Shown: in pieces, positions 3,390 to 37,984 of the stretch
How positions within the stretch are numbered: position 1 is the stretch's first letter
Layout of the letters: every line of letters begins with the position of its first letter
Assembly (NCBI GenBank): GCA_021740785.1
Contig: JAIOZI010000004.1
Coordinates: 1 to 64,000 of the forward strand
DNA from: Melioribacteraceae bacterium
GTDB lineage: Bacteria; Bacteroidota; Ignavibacteria; Ignavibacteriales; Melioribacteraceae
Reading direction: 5' to 3'
DNA length: 64,000 nucleotides
Notes under the pieces: model-generated
What the model saw: only the letters and a program-made list of their open reading frames with translations
Told to the model about the DNA's origin: nothing
The model's database searches: none
Translations under genes and position numbers: made by a program

Positions 3390-6272
3390 TTAAGATCGCG
3401 AAATGATTGTTATGTCAAGCAGCTTAAATATTTCTCTTGATCTTTTTTCGTCTATTGTGCGTAGTTTTCTGAGAGAGTCTTTTATTAAAGATGTTTGGGA
3501 ATTTTTTGCTTTACGAACAAGCCAATTTATATCTAGAGCCTTATATATTTTTCGCGCAAGTCTTTTATTGAAACTGTTTAGATTCGTTAAAGAATTAGCC
3601 AATTGTGTAAATGTAATATTTTTACTTCGTTCAATAACTTTTTCCCAATTTAATTGTTCTGCGAAATGATATGCTGAGATTCTATCAAAATTTTTGAGTT
3701 TATTTAATGCCCCACCGATATTTTTAAGATGTTCTGATTGAGCTTTGAGCAATAGTTTCGCTTTGTCAATACTTTCCCAAAGTGTTAACGCTAGTTCTTT
3801 ATCGAAAGTTTTTAGAGACGCAATGGAAATACAAAAGTTATTAAAATCTACAGCAGAAGCCTTTTTAACAATATTTTTTCTATCAGTTTGTGAAAGAAGG
3901 TAGCGGATTTTTGAGAAATCATCGTCATATTTTTTAAAGTTATGTAGTATTACACCAATTTTCTGAAACGTGATATTCTTATTATGTAATTTGTTTAATA
4001 GAATATGATTATCCAGAGACCGGAAAAGTTTTTTCGTTTTTTCTTTATCTACAGCATTCATTTCGCTTAAACTTTGCGAAATCTGCTCTAAAGATGATCT
4101 ATTCAGCGAATCTAAAATTAATTGATCTTCTAACTGTAGAAATAATTCTCTAGCCTTCTCAGAATTGATTTTGTTAAATTCTATTAGCGATCTTCCGATA
4201 CCTTCTACTTCCAAGAGCTTTAGATTTTCTATTAATTTATTACTCTCAAGTGAATGAAACAATAAAATAGAAACATTTTGATCTAATTCAGATAATTCAT
4301 TCAACATTTTGCTGATGTATTTAATATTGTAGTCACTAAAACTGTGCTGTAATTTTTCTGTATCAAGTTGTTTAACAATAGATTTGGTTTTGATATTGTC
4401 GACTCTGTAGAGTTCGCTTAAACCTTTGCCGATATGTGAAAGAGATGAACCATATATTTTGTTTAGAAGCTCATCTGTTGAGAGAGCTTGGTATATTTTA
4501 TAACCGATTTTCTTTTGCCCGGATAATAAGTCGAGCTCCCTCAAAGAATTAGCGAGCAGATTAAATTTTGTTCTTCTGGAGAATTCTACTAATTCTTCAA
4601 GACCAAATTCTGATAAAACTTCCGAAGCTTTTTCAGGTGCAGTTTTATTCATCTTCAATAAACCAACGGATATACCGGCTATAGAGAAACTTCGGAAATC
4701 TTCCGCCCACTTTTTTGCAGGCAATTTATCTAAAATAGCTTTAACTAGACCTCTATTTTTCTTGCCAATACGATAAAGGATGAACAACAGTTTTAGGTAA
4801 TAACCGTTATTAAGGTAATAATTGATAAATTTATCAAATATATTAGTGCTTCTAAGCAATTTAACAGCAATGCTCTGACCTCGGTTATTTATTAAATTAT
4901 GAAATAGACCACCAAGGTTTAGTGGATAGTCATCAAAGGACAGAATGTAATCGCGAAGTTTTATGAAACATAAGTGCTCTAAATCTTTATATCTACGAAA
5001 AGATGTATGAACGGTAAATGAATTCAATAAAAGTTTGGCGAAAGAAGAATGATAAAGGTAGTAGTATGTTGATAAAGGATGGTTCCTAATCGTACCATCT
5101 AAGACAAGTTTATTTAATTCATTTTTCTCATTTTCTTTTGCTTCATAGTAAATTTCATATTTAGATAATGATGCAATCAAAAGAAGTTTTTCAAGATTTT
5201 TTCCCTTAAGATATTCATAAAATAAATCACGGAAAATTTTCTCTTTATCGATGTGCCTGTCTAACTGAGTAGATGGTTTCCAATACAATAAGTTATAGTA
5301 TAGAGTTATCAAATTATTATGAGAATTATTTATAACAAACTTTTCATTGCCTATTTGAAGCGATACTTTGTTTTTGTTTTCGTACCAATCTTTATACTTA
5401 TGTATAATACCGGAAGCCTTTTCAGTAAATGATTCTAGTGATATGTTGTAATAAGTAGATTCAAAATAATCTTTGAATGATACATTATCATATTCACTTA
5501 GCTGCTGTTCATATTTATCAGTTGGTCTTGATAAGAATAAAAAATAAAGGTTTTGTATCTTGTCATAATTCTGAACTATATAGGCTGCATCGTTTAATGA
5601 TATGTGACAATTATCAGCAATTACAAGCGTTTTACCAGTTGCATTAAGGAATAGTAAATCTTGCCATAAAAAGTTTTTATCGGGCAGAGTATCGAGTCTT
5701 ATATAGAAAACCGAATAACCTTTTTCTAAAAAGTTAAATCCAATTTTATAACCAAGTATTGATTTCCCGGTTTCAGGTATTCCAGATATAAGGGCATACT
5801 TATTTTTATTTTCAAAAAACTGCTTTTCGATTATATTGATAATATCAATCTCATCGCTCGGAAAGTAAACTAGATCATTGTCGAATAAAAATTTGTGCGG
5901 GTCTTTTGACGGAAGTTGAGAGAAATAAGTCTGAAGAGAGGTTAGAATTTGAGGGAAATGAAACTTAACCTTTAGCAGATTGAGAAACTCATGTCTTATT
6001 ATTTTTTGTTCTAGTAGAATTTCTTCAAGTTGAATCTTAATAGTAGTACTATCATCGGCTACTTGAAGCTGTGCTATCTTTAATTCATCTATATTCGCTT
6101 TAAGGAATTCAATAGTTTCATATAATAAAGCCTCTTCCCGAGCGTCTTTGAAGGCTAAAAGTAAATCGGTTGGTATACCAATAGAACTAAGAAACGCTCT
6201 GGCGAGTTTAAGCCACTTAGTTTTATCAAAATTATCTTCGCTATTCTTTTTTATTTGGTAAAGATCAACCAT
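3390..6272 (-). CDS. STAND-like P-loop NTPase with C-terminal helical repeats
   Basis: A 960-residue cytosolic protein. Residues 1-115 are helical and may form a coiled coil. A P-loop domain follows with Walker A GIPETGKS (164-171), Walker B-like LVIADN (216-221) and a sensor-like FLFLSRP (about 244-250). Residues 380-560 are alpha-helical without clear motifs. From about 590 to the end there are roughly ten degenerate 35-40-residue units of the pattern (I/L)GxxLxxLxx(I/L)(N/D)xxxAxxLFxxL. NTPase plus helical-repeat sensor is the architecture of STAND proteins, including the antiviral Avs and related families. I see no known effector domain, so the output is unknown. The gene stands alone on the minus strand among defence genes. 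Confidence 0.7.
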   Translation of the reverse strand: MVDLYQIKKNSEDNFDKTKWLKLARAFLSSIGIPTDLLLAFKDAREEALLYETIEFLKANIDELKIAQLQVADDSTTIKIQLEEILLEQKIIRHEFLNLLKVKFHFPQILTSLQTYFSQLPSKDPHKFLFDNDLVYFPSDEIDIINIIEKQFFENKNKYALISGIPETGKSILGYKIGFNFLEKGYSVFYIRLDTLPDKNFLWQDLLFLNATGKTLVIADNCHISLNDAAYIVQNYDKIQNLYFLFLSRPTDKYEQQLSEYDNVSFKDYFESTYYNISLESFTEKASGIIHKYKDWYENKNKVSLQIGNEKFVINNSHNNLITLYYNLLYWKPSTQLDRHIDKEKIFRDLFYEYLKGKNLEKLLLIASLSKYEIYYEAKENEKNELNKLVLDGTIRNHPLSTYYYLYHSSFAKLLLNSFTVHTSFRRYKDLEHLCFIKLRDYILSFDDYPLNLGGLFHNLINNRGQSIAVKLLRSTNIFDKFINYYLNNGYYLKLLFILYRIGKKNRGLVKAILDKLPAKKWAEDFRSFSIAGISVGLLKMNKTAPEKASEVLSEFGLEELVEFSRRTKFNLLANSLRELDLLSGQKKIGYKIYQALSTDELLNKIYGSSLSHIGKGLSELYRVDNIKTKSIVKQLDTEKLQHSFSDYNIKYISKMLNELSELDQNVSILLFHSLESNKLIENLKLLEVEGIGRSLIEFNKINSEKARELFLQLEDQLILDSLNRSSLEQISQSLSEMNAVDKEKTKKLFRSLDNHILLNKLHNKNITFQKIGVILHNFKKYDDDFSKIRYLLSQTDRKNIVKKASAVDFNNFCISIASLKTFDKELALTLWESIDKAKLLLKAQSEHLKNIGGALNKLKNFDRISAYHFAEQLNWEKVIERSKNITFTQLANSLTNLNSFNKRLARKIYKALDINWLVRKAKNSQTSLIKDSLRKLRTIDEKRSREIFKLLDITIISRS

Positions 6273-25648: not shown

Positions 25649-25999
25649 ATGACACAATCAGATGAAGTATTAAAGAAGTTACACAAAATTGAACATCTTC
25701 TCGAAGAGAGAAAGAACATACCCCTCAACCTAGTTCAAGCTGCCGAGTACTTGAGCATTTCACAATCACATCTTTACAGATTAACAAGCAAAAGGAAGAT
25801 ACCTTGTCACAAACCCAACGGGAAGTACTTGTACTTTTTTAAGGATGAGTTGGATGAGTGGATTGTTAACAATAATCGGATAAATAGCCCTCACCCCGAT
25901 ACTATTTCCACGCAAAAAAATGCAGAGCAGGCTACGAGCGAGGGGAATGCTTCGACTCCGCTCAGCACGGAGGATGAGGAAGATGAGGAGCCGCCGTAA
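25649..25999 (+). CDS. Excisionase-like HTH protein (MerR/HTH_17)
   Basis: A 116-residue DNA-binding protein. Residues about 25-75 (LVQAAEYLSISQSHLYRLTSKRKIP, KYLYFFKDELDEWI) are a typical HTH_17 excisionase domain. AAAGGA precedes the ATG. It lies 139 bases upstream of the tyrosine recombinase, the usual Xis-Int arrangement, so it probably directs excision. The C-terminal 30 residues are low complexity (ends EDEEDEEPP) and are partly encoded by a copy of the dispersed CTTCGACTCCGCTCAG repeat, so the tail appears to be recent repeat-derived sequence. Confidence 0.85.
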   Translation: MTQSDEVLKKLHKIEHLLEERKNIPLNLVQAAEYLSISQSHLYRLTSKRKIPCHKPNGKYLYFFKDELDEWIVNNNRINSPHPDTISTQKNAEQATSEGNASTPLSTEDEEDEEPP

Positions 26000-26137: not shown

Positions 26138-27232
26138 ATGGATGGGATAAGCAACATATTAGATAAATTATCTTTGGACGATGTCCAAAAGCTGAAGATG
26201 CTGTTTTCGATTTCTCAAGATTCGCCGGGGAAACCGCTGGTTACTTTACGTGTTTTTCGTGATGAATATGAGGTAATGATTGAGAATAACAGGTCGGCGA
26301 ATTATTGTAAGTCCGTTAGAATTGCAATGAAACATTTATGTGATTTTTTCGGATTGCAAAAGCCTATCGGTTCAATTTCTCTGAAGGATATGGAAGATTT
26401 TATGATGCATCTGCAGCGCCATGTGAAGAAAGGATACCGTGTTTATTATAGAACTCTGAAAGCTGCATTTACTAAGGCTGTTGAATGGGGGTACATCGAA
26501 AAAAATCATTTCACAAAAATTAAACTTCCGAAGAAGAATAAGCTGCATCCCACTTTTATTACCGAAAAGCAATTAAAAATAATACTTGAGAAGATACCAA
26601 ATGAGGTTGTGAGTGATTTTGTCTTGTTCGCTTATTATACGGGAATGCGTCTGGATGAGATTATAAATCTGAAATGGAGAAATCTAGATTTGGAAAACAT
26701 GATAATTATTGTAGGAGATGATGAGTTTGTTACGAAGGGAAAGAATCAGCGTTATGTACCGATTGGGGATGAGGTGGCTAGGGTTCTGAAGAATACGCGT
26801 AATTCATACCCACCCCATAATCCCCTCCCGGGAAGGGACAAATTTTCTAACGGATATGTGTTTTGTAAGGGTGACGGGAGAAAATATACTGGTGATTATT
26901 TTTCCCGCCGGTTTAAGAGGGCTTGCCGAGCTGCCGGTATGGATGAATCAATTCATTTTCATTCTTTAAGACATTCGTTTGCATCGAATCTTGTTCAACG
27001 CGGGGTTTCGCTTTATGTTGTTAAGGAGCTGCTCGGTCATGCGTCGATTTCTACAACGGAAATTTATTCGCATTTGAATGTGGATAGTTTGAGGGATGCG
27101 GTTAGCAGGTTGAATGCGAGAGGTGAAGACGGGAAGCATGAAAACACTGAACCCCCTCTAAATCTCCCCCTTAACAAGGGGGAGACTTTTAAACGTGGAC
27201 TGAGATTGGTTAGTGGAGAAAATTTGTTATGA
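26138..27232 (+). CDS. Tyrosine recombinase / integrase (first copy)
   Basis: A 364-residue site-specific recombinase. The catalytic set is complete: R171 (TGMRLDEI), K200, H275-xx-R278 (HSLRHSF), H301 (LLGH) and Y310 (IYSH). An N-terminal SAM-like core-binding domain covers about 30-125. Compared with the related recombinase at 35.6 kb it has about 14 extra residues at 222-236, in the loop before NGYVF, and an extra C-terminal tail. Both are encoded by palindromic repeat elements. Its stop overlaps the start of the primase gene (ATGA). It should integrate and excise this element. Confidence 0.92.
   Translation: MDGISNILDKLSLDDVQKLKMLFSISQDSPGKPLVTLRVFRDEYEVMIENNRSANYCKSVRIAMKHLCDFFGLQKPIGSISLKDMEDFMMHLQRHVKKGYRVYYRTLKAAFTKAVEWGYIEKNHFTKIKLPKKNKLHPTFITEKQLKIILEKIPNEVVSDFVLFAYYTGMRLDEIINLKWRNLDLENMIIIVGDDEFVTKGKNQRYVPIGDEVARVLKNTRNSYPPHNPLPGRDKFSNGYVFCKGDGRKYTGDYFSRRFKRACRAAGMDESIHFHSLRHSFASNLVQRGVSLYVVKELLGHASISTTEIYSHLNVDSLRDAVSRLNARGEDGKHENTEPPLNLPLNKGETFKRGLRLVSGENLL
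26801..26845 (+). repeat. Palindromic repeat inserted in frame inside the integrase gene
   Basis: The stretch holds CCCCTCCC-GGGAAGGG and encodes SYPPHNPLPGRDKF. It has the layout of the intergenic CCCCTC/GAGGGG elements near 1202 and 3064, and the paralogous integrase lacks these residues. Confidence 0.7.
27152..27190 (+). repeat. CTCCCCCTT/AAGGGGGAG palindrome in the 3' end of the integrase gene
   Basis: The near-perfect stem CTCCCCCTT-AAC-AAGGGGGAG is read in frame as part of the C-terminal tail (TEPPLNLPLNKGETF). The tail lies beyond the catalytic Tyr and has no counterpart in the second integrase. Confidence 0.8.
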
Positions 27233-29577
27233 GTTATCGGGATGTGGCAAAGGATTATAATGATGCGTTCGGATTTAATGTTATTCCTCTTGTAAATAAG
27301 ATTCCAATAATGGATTGGAGCAGATGGCATGTTGAGGAAATGCGCTTTGATGATATTGATAAATTAGGCTGGCATGTGAGGGTGAATGGTCTTGGCACAA
27401 TTTCCGGAGTAAATGATTTGCGATGTTTGGATTTTGATAATGTTGTTGATGAGAATTTTGTATATGAGTTTGCAGAGGCACTTGGGCTTGGTAAGGATTA
27501 TGTCTGGATAGTTAAGAGCGGCAGCGGAAAGGGTTTTCATATATGGTTTTATTGTGAGAATGAAGATTATTATTTGGAGGGTATCGGTGGTGAAAAATCC
27601 TATTATAAATTTGAGCCGAGAAAGAATAAGAAATGTGACCATGTCGAATTGAGATGGAAAAATTGCCAGACGGTCCTACCCCCTTCCAAACATCCAAGCG
27701 GTAATGAGTATAAGTTTGTGAATATGAAAAGCAGCGGCATCCCGGAATTGGAGCCGGGAAAAGTCTGGATCGGTAAACTGCTTGAGTCGATAAAGAAGTT
27801 ATGTGTTATAGAAGATTCTAACAGCGATAAGAAAACGGTTAATTCAAAGTCCGGTTCAAACAACGGTAGAAAGAGAACTTTATATAAGTACGAAAAGAAA
27901 CTGCTTGATGATGCTTCTGATTTTATTAAGGGTACAATCGATAATTATGATGACTGGCTAAAGCTTGGTTTTGCTCTTGCGGAAATTGGTGAAGCCGGGC
28001 GAGAATATTTTGTTAGAATCAGCAGCGATAATAAAAAATATAATGATTGTGAAGAATCGATTAACAAAAAGTTTGACGGACTGCTAAAAGATTATAGAGG
28101 TGATATAACATTAGGGACCTTCTTTGAGATTGCCAAAAAATACGGATGGGTAAAACCGCGAAAACATTTCTGGCGAATTGATGATAACAAGGCTGTGATA
28201 ATACGAGCGGAACTGATTGAGTTGCTGGAGGAAGAGGGTTTCGGGAAAATATTTATTGGTGATGAAAATATTTTTGTGCGGGTTTGTAATAATGTCGCAA
28301 CTGAAACAAACAACGTGAGAATAAAGGATTTTGTGCTGGATTATATTGATGATGTTATTAATGAAGATTGGGTAAAACGGCTAGTGAAAGAAAGTCTGAT
28401 AAAAGGTGCGCGAACAATATTTGGTGATGCGACACTGGAGTGCATGCAGACTTTAGAATTGCATTTCTTACGTGATAATAAGGAAACATCATATTTCTTT
28501 TTTGATAATTATTTTGTTGAAGTGAATAAAGGTTATGTGAATGTAAAAGGTTATGATTTACTGGAAGGTGTTATCTGGGAGCGACAAAAAATCGATCGGA
28601 AGTTTGTCAGGGGTAATAGTGATTGTGTGTTTAAGGAGTTCTTAAAAAATATCTGTAGAAATGAGTCAAAAAGATTATCTGCTTTGAAAAGTGCGATTGG
28701 TTATTTGCTGCATAATTATAAGAATCCGGCTTGTACTAAAGCAATAATTTTCGTTGATGAGAAATTGAGCGAGAATGCGTTTGGAAGATCCGGAAAGGGA
28801 TTAATTGGCGGGGCAGTTTCAAAGTTAAGAAATGCCGTAAAGATTGACGGGAAGAATTTCAATTTTGATAAGTCGTTTGCTTTCCAGGCTGTGGATATTG
28901 ATACTGAAATTATGTTCTTTGATGATGTGATTAAGAAATTCGAATTCGAGAGGTTGTTCAGCATATTAACAGAGGGATTAACGATTGAAAAGAAAAACCG
29001 GAATTCAATTCATATAGATTTTGAAGATTCACCAAAGGTACTGATTACAACTAATTATTCGGTTAATGGTTCTGATGATTCGAGTAAAGACAGGCAATTT
29101 GTAGTTGAATTTTCTGATCACTACAATGCCAGGCATAAGCCAACTGATGATTTTGGAAAACTCTTTTTCAGCGAGTGGGATAATGATGAGTTTAACCGTT
29201 TTGATAATTTTATGACCGGGTGTTGTCAGTATTATCTGCAGCATGGTTTGGTTGAGTATGACTATGTGAATCTTACCCGTAAAAAATTGATTGATGAAAC
29301 TAGTACTGAGTTTGAGGAGTTTATCAGCGGAATTGTTTTGGGAACTGAGCATAATAAGAAGGAACTATTCAAAAGGTTCCAGGAAGAGTATGAGGATTAT
29401 GAAAAGCTGCGTCAAAACACTTTCACTAAGTGGACAAAAGTCTATGCTAATTTGTACGAATTGGACGTTCACGAGAGGAAGTCCGGGCGGGAGCGCTATT
29501 TTGCATTGACGAAAAAGGGTGAAAGATTTATTGCACAAACGGAATCTGGACGAAGTGATGATGAGTTGGGTTTTTAG
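27229..29577 (+). CDS. Primase-polymerase with SF3-type helicase domain
   Basis: A 782-residue replication protein of a mobile element. The N-terminal archaeo-eukaryotic primase/PrimPol domain has CLDFD (D68, D70), GKGFHIWF (H104) and VLPPSKHPSG. A PriCT-2-like linker lies at about 235-300 (DYDDWLKLGFALAEIG). The C-terminal ATPase has Walker A FGRSGKGL (518-525), Walker B IMFFDD (about 561-566) and the SF3-like sensor PKVLITTNYSVNG (about 602-614), ending in a winged-helix-like DNA-binding region. Its ATG overlaps the integrase stop. It probably replicates the excised circle, as in phage satellites and plasmid-like elements. Confidence 0.87.
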   Translation: MSYRDVAKDYNDAFGFNVIPLVNKIPIMDWSRWHVEEMRFDDIDKLGWHVRVNGLGTISGVNDLRCLDFDNVVDENFVYEFAEALGLGKDYVWIVKSGSGKGFHIWFYCENEDYYLEGIGGEKSYYKFEPRKNKKCDHVELRWKNCQTVLPPSKHPSGNEYKFVNMKSSGIPELEPGKVWIGKLLESIKKLCVIEDSNSDKKTVNSKSGSNNGRKRTLYKYEKKLLDDASDFIKGTIDNYDDWLKLGFALAEIGEAGREYFVRISSDNKKYNDCEESINKKFDGLLKDYRGDITLGTFFEIAKKYGWVKPRKHFWRIDDNKAVIIRAELIELLEEEGFGKIFIGDENIFVRVCNNVATETNNVRIKDFVLDYIDDVINEDWVKRLVKESLIKGARTIFGDATLECMQTLELHFLRDNKETSYFFFDNYFVEVNKGYVNVKGYDLLEGVIWERQKIDRKFVRGNSDCVFKEFLKNICRNESKRLSALKSAIGYLLHNYKNPACTKAIIFVDEKLSENAFGRSGKGLIGGAVSKLRNAVKIDGKNFNFDKSFAFQAVDIDTEIMFFDDVIKKFEFERLFSILTEGLTIEKKNRNSIHIDFEDSPKVLITTNYSVNGSDDSSKDRQFVVEFSDHYNARHKPTDDFGKLFFSEWDNDEFNRFDNFMTGCCQYYLQHGLVEYDYVNLTRKKLIDETSTEFEEFISGIVLGTEHNKKELFKRFQEEYEDYEKLRQNTFTKWTKVYANLYELDVHERKSGRERYFALTKKGERFIAQTESGRSDDELGF

Positions 29578-29818: not shown

Positions 29819-30802
29819 ATGAGTGGAGCAATAGCAGGCACAGCAATATTAAAAAATTCACGCCTTTCTGATGAACTAAATACAATCACCCTAACAATCA
29901 ACAATAATTGTAATCTTTCATGCCCCCATTGTTATTTGCAATATAATAAAAAGAATTTTTTGTTAGCAGAACCAACTATAGATTCAGTTTTCAAATCTGA
30001 TTTTAAACATTTAGCGATTGTTGGGAAAGAACCTTTATTAAACAGAGAATCGATAAAACTTGTGCATGATTTAATCAATAGGTGCAAGAAAATGGGTAAA
30101 AGTATATCACTGATTACAAATGGCACTGGCTTAGAAAAATTAAATCCAATATCGATTGGTGAGATTGACTATATAGATGTTAGTTTTGATGGTGGACCAA
30201 AAACATATGAGATGAATAGGAAAGGAACTTTTGATAGAATTATTGACTCAATTAATAACATTCAAGAAAAAAGTAGGACGATTTTTAACGCACTTCACAC
30301 TATCCACTCAGCTAATATAAATAACATTGATGATATGCTCGAAATTAGAAATTATGCTGATTTTGATATTATTATGTTTTCACCATATTTAAAAACCCAT
30401 AATGATGGGACTAATGAAATTGAAAGTGTTAAACTCGAAGATATTCTAAAAAAATTGAGCTCATCATACAGCTTTAACAATACTAATAGTGCATACCTTT
30501 TAATTGATACTTATCATTTAGCACAAGAATCTATCACCGAATCAGTTATAGAAGAATTGATTTCTAAGTATTCACTTGAGTCAAAGGTAAAGCTATTTGC
30601 AAAAGATGCATTACTTTATGGTATAATCAGAGTGACCTTTGATGATCTTGTCCTTACACCAGAAGAATCTTTACATCCTATATATTATTTTGATTCTTTC
30701 CGTTATGCCTCGAATCATGATTTGAATCAAATCTTTTCTGAACTAAAAGAAAAATCTTATAAAAATAAATATGATTATAAAAGGGCTGAACTTTTCTTAT
30801 GA
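29819..30802 (+). CDS. Radical SAM enzyme, first gene of an importer cassette
   Basis: A 327-residue radical SAM protein. The 4Fe-4S site is C31-x3-C35-x2-C38 (NCNLSCPHCY), followed by the expected strands: AIVGKEPLL (GGEP-like), SLITNGTG and YIDVSFDGGP (SAM-binding strands). There is no SPASM-type Cys cluster at the C-terminus. The ATG follows AGAGGC at about eight bases. Its end overlaps the ABC ATPase gene by 32 bases, so it belongs to one operon with the importer and the dehydrogenase-like gene. The substrate is unknown. A role in modifying or making the imported compound is inference. Confidence 0.88.
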   Translation: MSGAIAGTAILKNSRLSDELNTITLTINNNCNLSCPHCYLQYNKKNFLLAEPTIDSVFKSDFKHLAIVGKEPLLNRESIKLVHDLINRCKKMGKSISLITNGTGLEKLNPISIGEIDYIDVSFDGGPKTYEMNRKGTFDRIIDSINNIQEKSRTIFNALHTIHSANINNIDDMLEIRNYADFDIIMFSPYLKTHNDGTNEIESVKLEDILKKLSSSYSFNNTNSAYLLIDTYHLAQESITESVIEELISKYSLESKVKLFAKDALLYGIIRVTFDDLVLTPEESLHPIYYFDSFRYASNHDLNQIFSELKEKSYKNKYDYKRAELFL

Positions 30803-31373
30803 TGAGAAACCCCTATATGAGGATTTCTGTTTTGAATCAGAAAGTAAAATCATAGCATTAAAGGGTCCATCGGGCTGTGGTAAAACAACATTGTTAAAGA
30901 TTCTATCTAAGAATCTTATTCCTCAAAAGTATTCCGAAATAGATTTTAGGACTAATACTTTTTTGGTGATTCAAGAAGACGGCTTATTCCCTTGGTTATC
31001 TGGAGAACAGAATATTCTACATTTCATAGATATTGATTACAAATCAATAACAGAAAATGAAATATTTGAGAATATAAAAACTTATTGGAAAAAGAAGGCA
31101 TTTGAAATGTCATTTGGCCAAAGAAGAATGATTGAACTTTTTCGAGCTATCTTATTACAACCAGATTTATTACTCTTAGATGAACCTTTTAATTTTCTTG
31201 ATAAGAAGAACAGAAAAATAATAACTAAAACTCTGTTGGAGATTTCAAAGCGCAATACTGAAATAATCTTTACAAGTCACTATAAAGAAGAAAATCTAAG
31301 TTATGACATAAATACTTACTATTATAATGGTAGTTTTCCAATCAGAAGGTTAGAAAATGAAAAACAAAATTAA
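30771..31373 (+). CDS. ABC importer ATP-binding subunit (NitT/TauT type)
   Basis: A 200-residue nucleotide-binding subunit that powers uptake. It has Walker A GPSGCGKTT (32-40), a Q-loop (VIQEDGLFPWLSG), signature SFGQRR (about 115) and Walker B LLLLDEP (about 132-138), followed by the H-loop ending IIFTSH. DGLFPWLS is characteristic of the nitrate/taurine/sulfonate branch. It overlaps the radical SAM gene upstream and the permease gene downstream. The protein is shorter than the usual 240-260 residues but retains all motifs. Confidence 0.92.
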   Translation: MIIKGLNFSYDEKPLYEDFCFESESKIIALKGPSGCGKTTLLKILSKNLIPQKYSEIDFRTNTFLVIQEDGLFPWLSGEQNILHFIDIDYKSITENEIFENIKTYWKKKAFEMSFGQRRMIELFRAILLQPDLLLLDEPFNFLDKKNRKIITKTLLEISKRNTEIIFTSHYKEENLSYDINTYYYNGSFPIRRLENEKQN

Positions 31374-32106
31374 GAAAATTGCCTTGACTACAAGCGGAAT
31401 AATATTGATACCAGTAGTTTGGATTGTTTTAAAGTATTTAGATGTTATCTCAGATAGATATCTCCCTTCTATACAATCAGTAATTGATGCTTTTTTATCA
31501 ATAGAACCTAACATCCTAATACATTCTTATTGGTCACTTTTAAGGTTGGTGGTTGGTTTTACAGGAGGAACAGTAATAGGAATTGTATTAGGGTTATATT
31601 TATTTAAAAGTCGTGTTCTTAACAAATTATTATACCCAGGTATTCAATCTTTAAGATCTATACCAGCTGCTGCAACAGTTCCTTTTTTTTTGTTATGGTT
31701 TGGTTTTGAAGAGACTGGTAAACTACTGTTAATATTTACCGGAATAGCTTTTAACCTATCTATTACAACTTTGGAGGTCTTATCACGCATTCCAGAAAAA
31801 TATTTGATTTTTTTTAGTAGTATTAAAAGTAGTCCGAGAGATAAACTAAATTATTTCGCATTACCTTTTGTTTTAGAAAAAATACTACCAACTTTACGTT
31901 TTTCTCTTTCAACAGCTATTAGTTTAGTTGTTATTTCAGAATTACTCGGTTCTCAAGTTGGATTAGGTTATTTGATTCAAACTGCACGTTCAACATTCTC
32001 TATGAATGTTATCTTTGCCTCAATGATTCTTTTAGGAATTATGAACTACACTGCTGATAAAATATTAATTGTCTCATGGAAAAAATTAATTTATTGGAGG
32101 ATATAG
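31357..32106 (+). CDS. ABC importer permease (NitT/TauT type)
   Basis: A 249-residue inner-membrane permease with about six hydrophobic segments. The EAA-type cytoplasmic loop region is visible around ISELLGSQVGLGYLIQTA, and the family signature RSIPAAATVPFFLLWFGFEETGK lies in two parts near 95-117. AGAAGG precedes the ATG, which overlaps the ATPase gene by 17 bases. It should form the channel with the ATPase and receive substrate from the lipoprotein encoded next. Confidence 0.92.
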   Translation: MKNKIKKIALTTSGIILIPVVWIVLKYLDVISDRYLPSIQSVIDAFLSIEPNILIHSYWSLLRLVVGFTGGTVIGIVLGLYLFKSRVLNKLLYPGIQSLRSIPAAATVPFFLLWFGFEETGKLLLIFTGIAFNLSITTLEVLSRIPEKYLIFFSSIKSSPRDKLNYFALPFVLEKILPTLRFSLSTAISLVVISELLGSQVGLGYLIQTARSTFSMNVIFASMILLGIMNYTADKILIVSWKKLIYWRI

Positions 32107-33140
32107 TGAGATTAATCAAATTATATATAATCATTCCTTTCTTACTCTTTTTCACAATTATGTCATGTGATGAATCAACTAATGAAAAATCATTAAAGGT
32201 GGGAATTTCACCTTATCAAGACATTGCAATGATTGTTAATTATGAGCACCTTGATTTGGAAAGAAAATATAACATGTCACTTGATCTAATCACTATGAAT
32301 TGGGAGGATATTATACCAGCTATTGCAAGTTCAGGTGAAACTATTGATCTAGGATTTGCAAGTATTATTGAATACTTAACAAAAGAAAATAATATCAATA
32401 ATGATACCGAGGATTCATTATTATTTATTTATCCGGCTTATCTTTACAAAGGTGGAAGTTTTATTACATTTGATGAGAGCATTCAAGTGCTAGATAAATC
32501 TAATTTAACGAATAAAGATGTTATAAGTAATTTTTTACAATACAAGATTGGTGCCCAGAAAAATTCTGTATATGAAATGATGTTATATAGTTTGGCAAGG
32601 AAGAACAATATTAGTATTAAAGAATTAAAAATTTATGATACTCCACTAAACGATGGATTACTTGCAACGCAAAATGGGAGTTTGGATATATCATCTGCTG
32701 GACTTACCCAATTAACTGAAGCAAAAAAAAGAGGTGGTCGAGTAGTGCTAAATATGGAAACTATGGATTTCGCAAATGATATGATGGGCTTTGTCTGTAA
32801 AAAAAGCACATTACAAAGTAGAGAAAAAGAAATTAAAAATTTTATAAAAATGTGGTATGAATGTGTTGATTATGTTTTTAAAAATTTGGATGAAAATTCA
32901 AAAGTGAGTTTAGAGTATCTTGATGAAAAAGCAGCAACTAAATATACACTATCGCAATATAAATCAGCGTTAAGTCAAGAATATTTTCCCAAATCAATAG
33001 ATGAAGTTAATGAAGTATTTATTTCTGACACAGGTAAGTATTATTATAAACGAGTGGCTGATGATATTATTCAATATTTACTCGAGAACAACATCGTAAG
33101 AGCACGACCTAAAGTTCCCGAATTTATCAAAATAAAATAA
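32106..33140 (+). CDS. Substrate-binding lipoprotein of the importer
   Basis: A 344-residue periplasmic-binding lipoprotein of the TauA/NMT1-like family. I chose the GTG at 32106 because GGAGG lies five bases before it and it overlaps the permease TAG by one base. An upstream ATG at 32076 has no such site. The signal peptide ends in a lipobox FTIMSC with the lipidated Cys21. The mature part follows the family order: VGISPYQDIA, LDLITMNWEDIIPAIASG-like segment, LGFASI, and a hinge region NSVYEMMLYSLARKNNI. The ligand cannot be read from sequence. Confidence 0.88.
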   Translation: MRLIKLYIIIPFLLFFTIMSCDESTNEKSLKVGISPYQDIAMIVNYEHLDLERKYNMSLDLITMNWEDIIPAIASSGETIDLGFASIIEYLTKENNINNDTEDSLLFIYPAYLYKGGSFITFDESIQVLDKSNLTNKDVISNFLQYKIGAQKNSVYEMMLYSLARKNNISIKELKIYDTPLNDGLLATQNGSLDISSAGLTQLTEAKKRGGRVVLNMETMDFANDMMGFVCKKSTLQSREKEIKNFIKMWYECVDYVFKNLDENSKVSLEYLDEKAATKYTLSQYKSALSQEYFPKSIDEVNEVFISDTGKYYYKRVADDIIQYLLENNIVRARPKVPEFIKIK

Positions 33141-33148
33141 GAACAATA

Positions 33149-35578
33149 ATGAATTCATTTGACAAAAAACAGATTGAAATCTTAACTCCACTATATAAGA
33201 ATAAAGTTGTTTTACATTTTGCTTTTTTTGCTAATACTTTCCCAATTGCCTATCATTATACTCAACTATTGAAAGGGGAAAAAGATACTAAAATCAAGGA
33301 TTATATAAAATTACACGATTGGAATAATTTATTACCTTCTGGAACACCTAAGGGGAAATTTTGGGAAGAAAAATTACAGGCGGCGTTAAATCATACTGAA
33401 GAAAGATGGAAATTTCCCCAAAATATAAATTTATTTTATGCATCTGATATACATTATAAAAATAACTATGCTAACCCTCTTGAAAAAATTCGGCAATATT
33501 TCATAAAAGATTTTAAGGATTTAGAATTTTTAACTGAAGTTCCCTTTACAAAATATGCACCACGTTTTGTTTTTCTTAAAAATAATCTGTTCAATTATAA
33601 AATTGCTGAGCCGAAAAATTGTCAATATGATATTGACACACTAATTTTTAAGCAGTATTCAGTTGTAAAAAATTATTTTACAGAATTAGCCCTTGTATTA
33701 AGAAGAGCCCGCTCTAATGGAATAAAGAACTTTATTGTATATACAGACTTAGTTCATGAAGCTAAAGATATCTTTGCTGGTTATAAACTAACGGACGAAA
33801 ACACTGATTTCTATGACAAAGATGACTTGGGAACGTTAGTCAGCTTTAATCATTTGGATAAAGCTAATACTTTACAAATTTATTATTACGGTGCACCTAC
33901 ATCATTTGATTTATTACAGAAGAAGGACCGTTATATTCCAGTTATTCTTGAAGAAGGAAAACTACATGATGGATTAAGAGCGGTTGCTTGTTTACATTAT
34001 AATTCAACACACAAAAGTAAAATACGTTCAATTGAATCTGCCATTGTTCAGTATCAAAATGGACTGTTTGAAAAAGCAGCTGACTCTGATGCACCAGAAA
34101 AACTTAATAATATTCGTTTAGCATATAATAGATTTGCTTCACTGATAAGGCATGATACCCGGTTTGATACACCGGAATCATTTTCTAATTGTATTACACT
34201 TTTCAATAAATCTTATTCTGAGAAGGAAGAGGAAATTAAAGATAAATCAAAAATGATAACAATTAAACCTTCCAAGGATATTTATCATTTCCATTTTGGA
34301 GCAGGCAGACTATCGATTGGTTTAGTACTTCCTTCATTTAAAGCATCAGATAAAGAAGAAAAGAAATATATCTATGTTTTTCAAAAAAGAAGAGAAGAGT
34401 GGCGAAAGAGAATTCGAATAGATAATAAGAAAATAAAACTTATCAATAACATTGATTACAATCTAGAATTCAAACTATTTGGTAAATGTCCACGGCTAAC
34501 GAAAAACAATACATTTGTATTATATAATAATCTTCAAGAACTCAAAGAAATAATTACACGAGCCTCATCTATTTCATATTCTCTTGATAATAAAAATATG
34601 GAAAAAGAGTTGGTTAATTTTCTTTTAAGTAACGAGTATATAAGCAAAAAAGTATATTTATTCCCGTTTGAAAATAATCCAATAAATCACAATGAAGAGC
34701 CCGAACTTATGAACCATTTGAATAATCATGATCAATTGATATTTACAAGGGTGAAAGCAGACCGGATTTGTATACAAAGAAATTTTGAATCAAATAATAC
34801 AATAAATGTTGAATGTGAAGAACATGCAGAAATTATAATTGACAATTCTGATGACTATGTCAAATCACTATTTTCTTCTCTTTATAGATTATCTAATAAT
34901 ATTATTTTTACTTCCTCAAAAGAACAATTTCAATTTTTGGCCAATCGAAAAAAATTATTATTGAATGAGCTTCATTTCATTTTAGCTATTTATGGGTATG
35001 CTTTTTTAGTATCAAAAGAAATCATTCATTGGGAGCATCAATATGTAACAATATTGCAAGCAGCTTTGGAAAATGATCCAAACTATAGTATACCAATCAA
35101 CACATTTATAAAATTACAAATAATTCGTTTGTTTTTATCAGACAAATATACTATTGATACTATGAACGATATATATGGGGTTAGTGGAAATGATTATGAG
35201 ATGCTTTATGAAAATCTTTTAAAATATGCTGAAAAAGTAAAAGCCCGTTTTAATAATTCAAAAGAAGATTCGATTTCAAGAGTATTCAACACACTTGATG
35301 TACCCACTATAAAAAGGAAATATAATTCTATTATAAAAGAAATAGAGCTATTCTTATTCAATAAACAGATACAAATAGAAAAATTCCCTCTTGTTAGCGG
35401 AAGTACTTACGGCGAATTTAGATATTTTCTAGAAGATGTTAAAAGCAGAGTATCTGAGATATTTAAGATGAGAGTTAAAATTCAGGATATGCAAATCAAA
35501 GAGATTGCAAAAGAACATCTAGCAAGGAAGCAAGATCTTAAATTCTACTCGAAAGAAATAAGACAAATACTTACATAG
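33149..35578 (+). CDS. Unknown N-terminal domain fused to a mannitol-dehydrogenase-type domain
   Basis: An 809-residue cytosolic protein. Residues 1-370 match nothing I know. Residues about 377-800 look like a polyol-specific long-chain dehydrogenase (MtlD/mannitol 2-dehydrogenase type). The NAD-binding loop is HFGAGRLSIG (GAGRLSIG at 384-391), VDRI-like KADRICIQR lies near 537-544, and the catalytic K-x4-N-x2-H is kept as K601, N606, H609 in NRKKLLLNELH, followed by the usual AIYGYAFLV. The gene starts eight bases after the lipoprotein gene, so it is the last gene of the cassette. Dehydrogenation of an imported polyol-like compound is a reasonable inference. The N-terminal domain function is unknown. 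Confidence 0.72.
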   Translation: MNSFDKKQIEILTPLYKNKVVLHFAFFANTFPIAYHYTQLLKGEKDTKIKDYIKLHDWNNLLPSGTPKGKFWEEKLQAALNHTEERWKFPQNINLFYASDIHYKNNYANPLEKIRQYFIKDFKDLEFLTEVPFTKYAPRFVFLKNNLFNYKIAEPKNCQYDIDTLIFKQYSVVKNYFTELALVLRRARSNGIKNFIVYTDLVHEAKDIFAGYKLTDENTDFYDKDDLGTLVSFNHLDKANTLQIYYYGAPTSFDLLQKKDRYIPVILEEGKLHDGLRAVACLHYNSTHKSKIRSIESAIVQYQNGLFEKAADSDAPEKLNNIRLAYNRFASLIRHDTRFDTPESFSNCITLFNKSYSEKEEEIKDKSKMITIKPSKDIYHFHFGAGRLSIGLVLPSFKASDKEEKKYIYVFQKRREEWRKRIRIDNKKIKLINNIDYNLEFKLFGKCPRLTKNNTFVLYNNLQELKEIITRASSISYSLDNKNMEKELVNFLLSNEYISKKVYLFPFENNPINHNEEPELMNHLNNHDQLIFTRVKADRICIQRNFESNNTINVECEEHAEIIIDNSDDYVKSLFSSLYRLSNNIIFTSSKEQFQFLANRKKLLLNELHFILAIYGYAFLVSKEIIHWEHQYVTILQAALENDPNYSIPINTFIKLQIIRLFLSDKYTIDTMNDIYGVSGNDYEMLYENLLKYAEKVKARFNNSKEDSISRVFNTLDVPTIKRKYNSIIKEIELFLFNKQIQIEKFPLVSGSTYGEFRYFLEDVKSRVSEIFKMRVKIQDMQIKEIAKEHLARKQDLKFYSKEIRQILT

Positions 35579-35613: not shown

Positions 35614-36651
35614 TTACAGTAAGTAAATTGCGTTTTTTAAATTCTGCCGCTGCAAATGAGAATAAATCTGAGTGGTTGACAAGTCCTCATGCCCCAACAA
35701 CTCTTTAACAACATAAAGAGAAACTCCCTTTTGCACCAAATTAGAAGCGAATGAATGCCGCAAAGTATGGAAATGAATTTCATCATTTAATTTTGCTGCT
35801 CTAACGGATTTCTTGAATTTCTTGCTTACAAAATCTTCATTTAGCTTCTCCCCTTTTTCGTTGGTAAAGACATAATCATTCTTTTCACTGGAACCGAGAA
35901 GCGCTTTAATTATTTCACTAACTTTTTTATTCATTGGAATGATTCTTTCTTTTTTGCTCTTGGTCTGGAAGCTACCGGCAATTTTTGTTGTGATAGTCGA
36001 ATTATTAAAATCAATCCAATCCCATTTCATATTTACTAATTCACCTTGACGCATACCGGTATAAAACGTAATTGTAAATAGATCAGCAAGAATCGGTTCT
36101 TTTGTTTTCGATAAGATGAGTTCAAATTCTGATGTTGATATAAAAACCGGATGACTCTTTGCTATTCTTGGGAATTTAATTTTCTTAAATGGATTTTCTG
36201 CTAGGTATCCCCAAGCCACAGCTTTTGTGAAGGCTGCCTTTAATGTTCTGTAGTAGAGATGCGCCCCTTTCTGAGCTCTTGTAAAAGTGATGGTAATAAA
36301 TTTGTCTATTGTTTTTACATCAATTGCCGATAAAGGTAGGTTGCCAATAGTATTTTCAAACTGGCGGAACGATAGCTTGATTGACTTAATATATTTGGCT
36401 GATTTAATGGGTTGTATATATGCGAGGTATTCTTTTTTGAATTCGTTTAGGTAGACTAATTCAATTAATTGCGGTTCCGGTGATTTGATTTTTACCGGTG
36501 GCTGTGGATGATTCAAAGAATTTTTGAATTCTTCTAAAAATTCATTTGCTTTCTTTTCATCTTTAGTTTTGGTTGAAATGGTTGTTCTTTTACCATTAAC
36601 AAAATATACAACTTGATAATTAGGTGACTTTGAGTTTTTGACCAGGAACAT
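35614..36651 (-). CDS. Tyrosine recombinase / integrase (second copy)
   Basis: A 345-residue recombinase related to the one at 26.1 kb. The catalytic residues are R201 (TGMRQGEL), K231, H295-xx-R298 (HTLRHSF), H321 (LLGH) and Y330 (IYSH). I chose the ATG at 36651, preceded by GGGAGG at six bases, over a TTG 15 codons upstream. The segment LYYRTLKAAFTKAV is shared almost exactly with the first copy. The gene points away from the tRNA-Thr fragment about 80 bases upstream, the normal layout for an island integrase beside its attachment site. Confidence 0.92.
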   Translation of the reverse strand: MFLVKNSKSPNYQVVYFVNGKRTTISTKTKDEKKANEFLEEFKNSLNHPQPPVKIKSPEPQLIELVYLNEFKKEYLAYIQPIKSAKYIKSIKLSFRQFENTIGNLPLSAIDVKTIDKFITITFTRAQKGAHLYYRTLKAAFTKAVAWGYLAENPFKKIKFPRIAKSHPVFISTSEFELILSKTKEPILADLFTITFYTGMRQGELVNMKWDWIDFNNSTITTKIAGSFQTKSKKERIIPMNKKVSEIIKALLGSSEKNDYVFTNEKGEKLNEDFVSKKFKKSVRAAKLNDEIHFHTLRHSFASNLVQKGVSLYVVKELLGHEDLSTTQIYSHLQRQNLKNAIYLL

Positions 36652-36733
36652 GTTTTTCCTCCCGGTCTTGTATGGACTTTTGTATGGAGTGCCCAAAATC
36701 CTTCAAAAACAGCGTATAAACAACGAATCCCGA

Positions 36734-36778
36734 TGATTTGTAATCAGCCGGTCGGCGGTTCAAGTCCGTCCGCCAGCT
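36734..36778 (+). other. 3' fragment of tRNA-Thr(TGT): probable attachment site
   Basis: The stretch contains the 3' half of a threonine tRNA: the anticodon arm TGATTTGTAATCA (36734-36746), a T-arm GGCGGTTCAAGTCCGTC, then the acceptor 3' strand CGCCAGC (36771-36777) and discriminator T. No D-arm or 5' acceptor strand (GCTGGCG) precedes it, so it is not a complete gene. Duplicated 3' tRNA ends are the usual footprint of tyrosine-recombinase islands. A terminator follows at 36803-36835. Confidence 0.8.
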
Positions 36779-36802
36779 CACATTATGACCAAAAACAAAG
36801 AA

Positions 36803-37009: not shown

Positions 37010-37984
37010 TTACCATCCGAGGTATTCATTCTTTAAAAGATAATTTTGCACATAATCTTTTACACCATCTTCAATCGAAGTGATTTCATTATTGTATCCG
37101 GCATTTCTAAGTTTATCCAATTCGGCTTCGGTGAAGTACTGATATTTTGGTTTTAGGTAACCGGGCATTTCGATGTATTCAATGTTTACCGGTTTATCAA
37201 CAGCTTTGAAAAGAGCCGTTACCAAATCATTCCATGTTCTGGCGCTTCCCGTTCCGATATTATAAATACCATTCTTTTCCCGGTTCTCGTAAAAGTATAG
37301 TGTCATGTCAACGGCATCTTTAACATAGATAAAATCACGCATCTGCTCGCCGTCTCCGTATTTATCATTATAGGATTTGAATAATTTTACCTTTCCTTCA
37401 TTCATTACCTGTTCAAATGCTTTATGCACTACGCTTCGCATATCAGCTTTGTGATATTCATTCGGACCGTACACATTGAAGTATTTTAATCCAACAACTT
37501 GATCAACCAGACTGTTATTAATCACCCACATATCAAACATTTGCTTTGAATATCCGTACATGTTTAGAGGACGCAGTTTCCCGGAATTTAATTCATCATC
37601 CCTATACCCGTTTTCACCTGCGCCGTAGGTTGCCGCCGATGAAGCATATATAAAACGTATGTGATTCTCAATCGAATACTCGGCAAGCGCTTGAGAATAC
37701 TTAAAATTATTGTACAAAAGATAATCGGCATCTCTTTCGGTAGTTGAAGAACATGCACCAAGATGAATTATCGAATCGATGTAAAAATCAATATCATCAT
37801 CTAAAATCATATCAATGAAATCATCCTTATGGATAATGTCGGAATAATGAAGCCCGTTAAGATTTTTCCACTTCTCTCCTTCTCCCAATCTATCCACGAT
37901 TATTATTTCATCAATTCCCATTTGGTTTAGTCTCCAAACAACTGCGCTGCCTATAAATCCGGCACCTCCGGTTACAACTATCAT
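37010..37984 (-). CDS. hldD: ADP-L-glycero-D-manno-heptose 6-epimerase
   Basis: A 324-residue extended short-chain dehydrogenase that converts ADP-D-glycero-D-manno-heptose to the L-glycero form for lipopolysaccharide inner core. The NAD-binding motif GGAGFIG (6-12) is at the N-terminus, the YxxxK pair lies in MYGYSKQ near 140, and the HldD-specific stretches IHLGACSSTTERDADYL and KYFNVYGPNEYHKADMRS are present. Full length. It is the first housekeeping gene beyond the island boundary and is divergent from metH. Confidence 0.93.
   Translation of the reverse strand: MIVVTGGAGFIGSAVVWRLNQMGIDEIIIVDRLGEGEKWKNLNGLHYSDIIHKDDFIDMILDDDIDFYIDSIIHLGACSSTTERDADYLLYNNFKYSQALAEYSIENHIRFIYASSAATYGAGENGYRDDELNSGKLRPLNMYGYSKQMFDMWVINNSLVDQVVGLKYFNVYGPNEYHKADMRSVVHKAFEQVMNEGKVKLFKSYNDKYGDGEQMRDFIYVKDAVDMTLYFYENREKNGIYNIGTGSARTWNDLVTALFKAVDKPVNIEYIEMPGYLKPKYQYFTEAELDKLRNAGYNNEITSIEDGVKDYVQNYLLKNEYLGW

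Follow-up and report, generated by a model that had tools for sequence, protein, structure and literature searches.

The window, a 64,000-nucleotide stretch from a Melioribacteraceae bacterium, carries five closely spaced genes between two tyrosine recombinase genes, and the last of the five encodes an 809-residue fusion protein. The genes and features of this region are listed below, with identities given to the relative described in the next paragraph:

25649..25999, plus strand: small helix-turn-helix (excisionase-like) protein (PF12728, 6.6e-12)
26138..27232, plus strand: tyrosine recombinase, a mobile element gene (PF00589, 1e-38)
27229..29577, plus strand: primase-polymerase/replication protein of the mobile element (PF09250, PF08707; PHROG DNA primase)
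29819..30802, plus strand: radical SAM enzyme (CxxxCxxC), 327 aa (PF04055, 6e-13; 58% identical in the relative)
30771..31373, plus strand: ABC transporter ATPase, 200 aa (PF00005, 1.8e-19; 54% identical in the relative)
31357..32106, plus strand: ABC permease of the nitrate/taurine/sulfonate type, 249 aa (PF00528, 6e-17; CmpB/NrtB structures; 72% in the relative)
32076..33140, plus strand: substrate-binding protein (SsuA/NMT1-like, weak) with a lipoprotein-like N-terminus (TIGR01728, 1e-6; 61% in the relative)
33149..35578, plus strand: fusion protein, 809 aa, ATG start and one TAG stop, with an N-terminal domain matching no known family and a polyol-dehydrogenase-like C-terminal domain
33149..34243, plus strand: N-terminal domain, residues 1-365 (no Pfam, NCBIfam, PHROGs or PDB match)
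34277..35353, plus strand: MtlD-like dehydrogenase region, residues 377-735 (hhalign 29.3 against a shuffle maximum of 22.2; residue mapping)
34298..34321, plus strand: predicted nucleotide-binding loop GAGRLSIG, residues 384-391 (in register with MtlD residues 4-24, E=0.0028)
34949..34975, plus strand: predicted catalytic motif K601-KLLL-N606-EL-H609; the second oxyanion-hole Asn would be N509 (codon 34673-34675)
35614..36696, minus strand: second, inward-facing tyrosine recombinase, at the right-hand border of the cargo (PF00589, 1.4e-41)
36734..36780, plus strand: 47-nt duplicate of the tRNA-Thr(TGT) 3' half, identical to the intact tRNA-Thr gene in contig C37

A sole full-length relative of the fusion protein was found, in Bacteroidetes bacterium UWPOB_BACT1 (L021:8458-11598, G399:C82), which belongs to another class of the same phylum. 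The relative has 1046 residues and is 42% identical to the window protein over its full length; the shared part spans about 830 residues and is followed by a HAD_2 phosphatase domain (E=1e-23) with intact DVDGT (DxDGT) and GDxxxD motifs, a domain that the window protein lacks. In both genomes the genes follow the same order, i.e., radical SAM enzyme, ABC ATPase, permease, binding protein and, as the fifth of five, the fusion, with start-minus-end spacings of -31, -16, -30 and +9 in the window and +9, 0, -3 and +2 in the relative. Judged from this arrangement, the genes almost certainly form a tight operon, conserved across two classes, in which the fusion comes last. Codon positions 1 and 2 are 54-86% identical between the copies of all five genes, compared with 21-36% at fourfold-degenerate sites; because the former are far more conserved, all five genes are under selection at the protein level, and the codon comparison indicates that the two operon copies have diverged for a long time under selection for protein sequence. 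With its whole architecture conserved in so distant a relative, the fusion is likewise to be regarded as no chance joining of genes.

The cassette is rare. No further full-length relative was detected in at least 1,200 genomes of the phylum (in partly overlapping samples), viral contigs, plasmids or phages. The genomes covered were those of the whole order (164), two samples at class level (391 and 375), two further classes (245 and 4), one sample at phylum level (395) and a final sample of a class (166); viral contigs were queried with the fusion, whole or in parts, and with its operon neighbours, and contigs of one-per-species genomes were scanned for fusion relatives by short peptide patterns. 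A profile of the binding protein recovered only the same two genomes among 198. Weak matches (E 0.003-0.5), inspected in part, were put down to chance (an unrelated exported-type protein in L009/L011; L004), and matches to the HAD domain only were rejected as ordinary phosphatases. The relative's cassette is flanked by two copies, 82% identical, of a phage-type gene (PHROG 3000; L021 3097-3396 and 11624-11923); this duplication may mark the way in which the cassette was inserted there. Nearby (L084 3880-4668) lies a gene for a 262-aa protein whose start, FISHSHGDEKLA, looks TIR-like as judged by eye only.

Ordinary annotation fails on the fusion protein, since neither half matches anything in Pfam, NCBIfam, PADLOC models or PDB sequences (phmmer/HMMER), and literature searches returned no description of such a fusion or of the five-gene cassette. 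AlphaFold, given the whole 809-residue protein as a single sequence, reached a mean pLDDT of 31.8, too low for a usable model. The sequence-only reading had located GAGRLSIG at residues 384-391 and K601-x4-N606-x2-H609 further on, and had described the first 370 residues as matching no family; both motifs stand exactly there in the translation and recur in the relative (GAGKLGIG; K-EYLV-N-EL-H), and the N-terminus has likewise stayed without a family after searches of Pfam, NCBIfam, PHROGs and the PDB.

At 42% identity to the relative, the N-terminal domain is as well conserved as the rest of the protein, and is therefore an integral part of it rather than junk. Among its conserved stretches are NKVVLHF, ANTFPIAYHY, KYAPRFVFL, NNIRLAYN and TPESFxNC. 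AlphaFold with the two sequences gave an uninformative model (mean pLDDT 34.8), marginally better around residues 190-225, where strands alternate with helices. Three candidate assignments were discarded: a polyol dehydrogenase (alignment score only 12.6), a duplicate of the C-terminal half (14.5), and a tryptophan methyltransferase suggested by an NCBIfam match (E=0.04) that the relative does not share.

For the C-terminal half, a reference set of 17 polyol-specific long-chain dehydrogenases was collected and aligned, including E. coli MtlD, UxaB, UxuB, YdfI and YeiQ, the MtlD proteins of Priestia, Paenibacillus and Enterococcus, D-arabinitol dehydrogenase, several plasmid members and a HAD-fused Acinetobacter enzyme. 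KxxxxNxxH, which PMC4022671 (citing Klimacek & Nidetzky 2002) gives as the catalytic signature of this group, is carried by all 17 as well as by the window protein and its relative. Residues 377-735 hold, in order, HFGAGRLSIG, EN508-509, ADRI537-540, CE556-557, K601-x4-N606-x2-H609 and RFNN...R711. A two-sequence alignment of the C-terminal half (window and relative) scored 29.3 by hhalign against the 17-member alignment, more than any of 200 column shuffles (mean 14.6, SD 2.35, max 22.2), while other protein pairs within the same cassette scored 11-19. EN508-509, ADRI537-540, CE556-557 and K601/N606/H609 were aligned collinearly in one block, with E508-N509 opposite the second oxyanion-hole Asn and ADRI (A537-DRI) in place of (M)VDRI; against the MtlD proteins alone, the best segment was a separate one, the glycine-rich loop (GxGxxxxG), in exact register (E=0.0028). 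When all were aligned jointly, the RF-N-R positions of the family were occupied by RFNN...R711 and R723.

In S. aureus mannitol-1-phosphate dehydrogenase (M1PDH), the catalytic triad is N119, K200 and N205, and the phosphate pocket is formed by R283/R287/R294, with R280 also among the residues whose roles were taken from the same source (PMC6623548). The triad has its counterparts in N509, K601 and N606; of the three pocket arginines, only R294 has one (R723, across an alignment gap), and R283 and R287 are unmatched. The ExxK glutamate of mannitol 2-dehydrogenase was not found, its place being taken by A598 in the window protein and by Ser in the relative, and E. coli MtlD likewise lacks a Glu exactly three residues before the catalytic Lys. 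Pfam Mannitol_dh and Mannitol_dh_C do not match the fusion protein even at E=5, so that the likeness is visible by profile-profile comparison and residue mapping only.

One could regard the C-terminal half as a non-catalytic or unrelated Rossmann protein resembling MtlD by convergence, as the silence of the HMM libraries and of the PDB sequence search on this half would allow. This is very improbable: two separate segments are collinear, the catalytic residues coincide, no column shuffle reaches the score, and all those residues are kept in a relative 42% identical. It is highly probable that this half is homologous to the polyol-specific long-chain dehydrogenases, though very divergent from them. 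Against the mannitol 2-dehydrogenase branch, the hhalign score falls to 19.4, and the alignments place the half nearest to mannitol-1-phosphate dehydrogenase (MtlD), not to mannitol 2-dehydrogenase. PF01232 is missing from 38 near relatives, the bacterium's own genome included, so no local mannitol enzyme was the source of the dehydrogenase domain. We infer a putative NAD(P)H-dependent reductase or dehydrogenase acting on a sugar phosphate or a comparable polyhydroxy compound, the proposed substrate class (a phosphorylated or polyhydroxy metabolite) being a tentative suggestion that is somewhat likelier to be wrong than right. The family placement given by the sequence-only reading, MtlD or mannitol 2-dehydrogenase with the NAD loop and catalytic Lys/Asn/His retained, thus survives and narrows to the MtlD side; it agrees with the profile-profile comparison against the 17 members, while the Pfam HMMs find nothing. 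The operon and the HAD domain of the relative had escaped it. What is new here is the mobile operon of five genes, the relative with its HAD domain and the affinity to MtlD.

The setting of the cassette is that of mobile DNA. The GC content of the cargo is 28-30%, compared with about 42% at metH, and conserved chromosome begins at 37010 with an rfaD-like gene and metH, two genes that stand side by side in four relatives as well. Lying right of the cassette and beside the integrase, the 47-nt tRNA-Thr fragment is probably the remnant of an attachment site; no left-hand tRNA-Thr fragment bounding the element was seen in the window or the genome. The far end of the island lies outside the window, because its first base is the start of the contig. 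The same genome holds a second, unrelated integrase, HTH and primase element (L089, G000:C50, 3426-8293) with the same 45-nt tRNA-Thr fragment, and the two elements therefore appear to share one attachment sequence.

Left of the element, at 1518-23708, the window contains a dense defence island with a Fic protein, DUF4209 (PDC-S39), type I restriction HsdR/S/M, a GmrSD-type enzyme, a PD-Lambda-2_B-like HTH-protease and a DUF2326 ATPase (PDC-M68B). Within it, a 960-aa protein (3390-6272) whose only match, to nSTAND3 NTPases, is weak (E=2.5e-4) is possibly an unrecognised defence protein of the NTPase type. The relative's cassette is followed by OLD nuclease and type III restriction genes. The location of both copies in defence islands is suggestive of a defence role, and the cassette has accordingly to be weighed as an anti-phage system in which a small molecule or modified nucleotide, made or imported, poisons phage replication. 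Such a reading gains from these defence-gene neighbours of both the window copy and the relative's copy, from the position of the cassette as cargo of a recombinase/primase element, and from the radical SAM enzyme. Viperins are radical SAM proteins that make antiviral nucleotides, and the enzyme matches the viperin profile in a PADLOC search at E ~1e-12.

However, this likeness is no better than that to RiPP maturases. The nearest profiles of the radical SAM enzyme are RiPP maturases, viperin and MoaA, all at superfamily level; among solved structures, radical SAM maturases such as 5wgg and SkfB match it most closely by profile, and its C-terminus lacks SPASM cysteines. No small precursor-peptide ORF conserved across both loci was seen upstream of its gene, which weighs against a RiPP reading in turn. 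Moreover, no PADLOC model matches the fusion, the recombinase, or the relative's fusion and binding protein; mobile hotspots and islands gather non-defence cargo too; and only two instances are at hand. We consider a defence function plausible but rather unlikely, and more doubtful still its specific form, a new mobile chemical defence in which an imported precursor, the radical SAM enzyme and the reductase/phosphatase/N-terminal-domain enzyme would yield a phage-blocking small molecule. If defence proved true, it would represent a new chemical mode of defence.

A plainer possibility is that the operon serves nutrient use, combining catabolic enzymes with an ABC importer that takes up some rare sulfonate, phosphonate or sugar acid. 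The permease and binding protein do belong to the nitrate/taurine/sulfonate transport branch, and polyol dehydrogenases usually serve carbohydrate catabolism. On the other hand, such an operon would hardly be expected to be so extremely rare or to sit in mobile DNA rich in defence genes, neither a kinase nor an aldolase nor a regulator lies nearby, and a radical SAM enzyme would be unusual in operons of this kind. This explanation is unlikely, if somewhat less so than defence.

The reading to which we lean, by a modest degree of belief, is a rare, horizontally moving cassette for the uptake and biosynthesis of a small molecule, whose last enzyme would be a reductase of a sugar-phosphate-type or other polyhydroxy metabolite. 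The importer (ATPase, permease and binding protein) would bring in a precursor, which the radical SAM enzyme would modify; the C-terminal half would reduce or oxidise a phosphorylated sugar or similar compound, presumably by the Lys-base/Asn-oxyanion mechanism of its family, and the N-terminal domain may make, bind or further convert that metabolite. In the relative, the HAD phosphatase would add to the reductase step. The cassette as a whole would salvage or make a small molecule benefiting its carrier. We counted in favour the MtlD-type alignment, the relative's HAD domain, the same gene order, the selection, the low GC content and the flanking recombinases, and against it the missing Pfam, NCBIfam and PDB matches, the unmatched ExxK Glu and two phosphate Arg, the window copy without a HAD domain, the number of sequences, two only, and AlphaFold models too poor to support a fold. 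Were the cassette to make or salvage a metabolite, it would stand for an unexplored pathway spread by mobile DNA. In either case, standard annotation is blind to a protein that appears to join a distant offshoot of a classic family of carbohydrate enzymes to a domain matching no known family, and the 365-residue N-terminal domain is a target for structure determination.

Compared with known systems, the importer resembles those of the SsuABC/TauABC/NrtABC type in having a permease, an ATPase and a binding protein of the general type, and differs in its binding protein, whose matches stay below every curated cutoff and which has no sequence relative among solved structures. MtlD (mannitol-1-phosphate 5-dehydrogenase; Pfam Mannitol_dh/Mannitol_dh_C), the best-scoring subfamily, shares the order of GxGxxxxG, EN, DRI, K-x4-N-x2-H and RF...R; the fusions differ from it in their length of 809-1046 aa instead of about 380, in lying below all HMM thresholds, in a phosphate Arg set that is matched in part, and in the extra N-terminal domain. 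The HAD-fused MtlD-type enzyme of Acinetobacter (a 700-aa ORF in L048) combines a HAD phosphatase with an MtlD-type dehydrogenase as the relative does, but its HAD domain is N-terminal, whereas that of the relative is C-terminal and the window protein has none, and it lacks the familyless N-terminal domain. We know of no radical SAM/importer operon reported for this enzyme. Finally, the brown-algal mannitol 2-dehydrogenase SjM2DH is also a polyol-specific long-chain dehydrogenase with an N-terminal extension; according to PMC4022671, that extension comprises about 150 aa and is found only in algae, and the dehydrogenase part of SjM2DH is close to bacterial mannitol 2-dehydrogenase.
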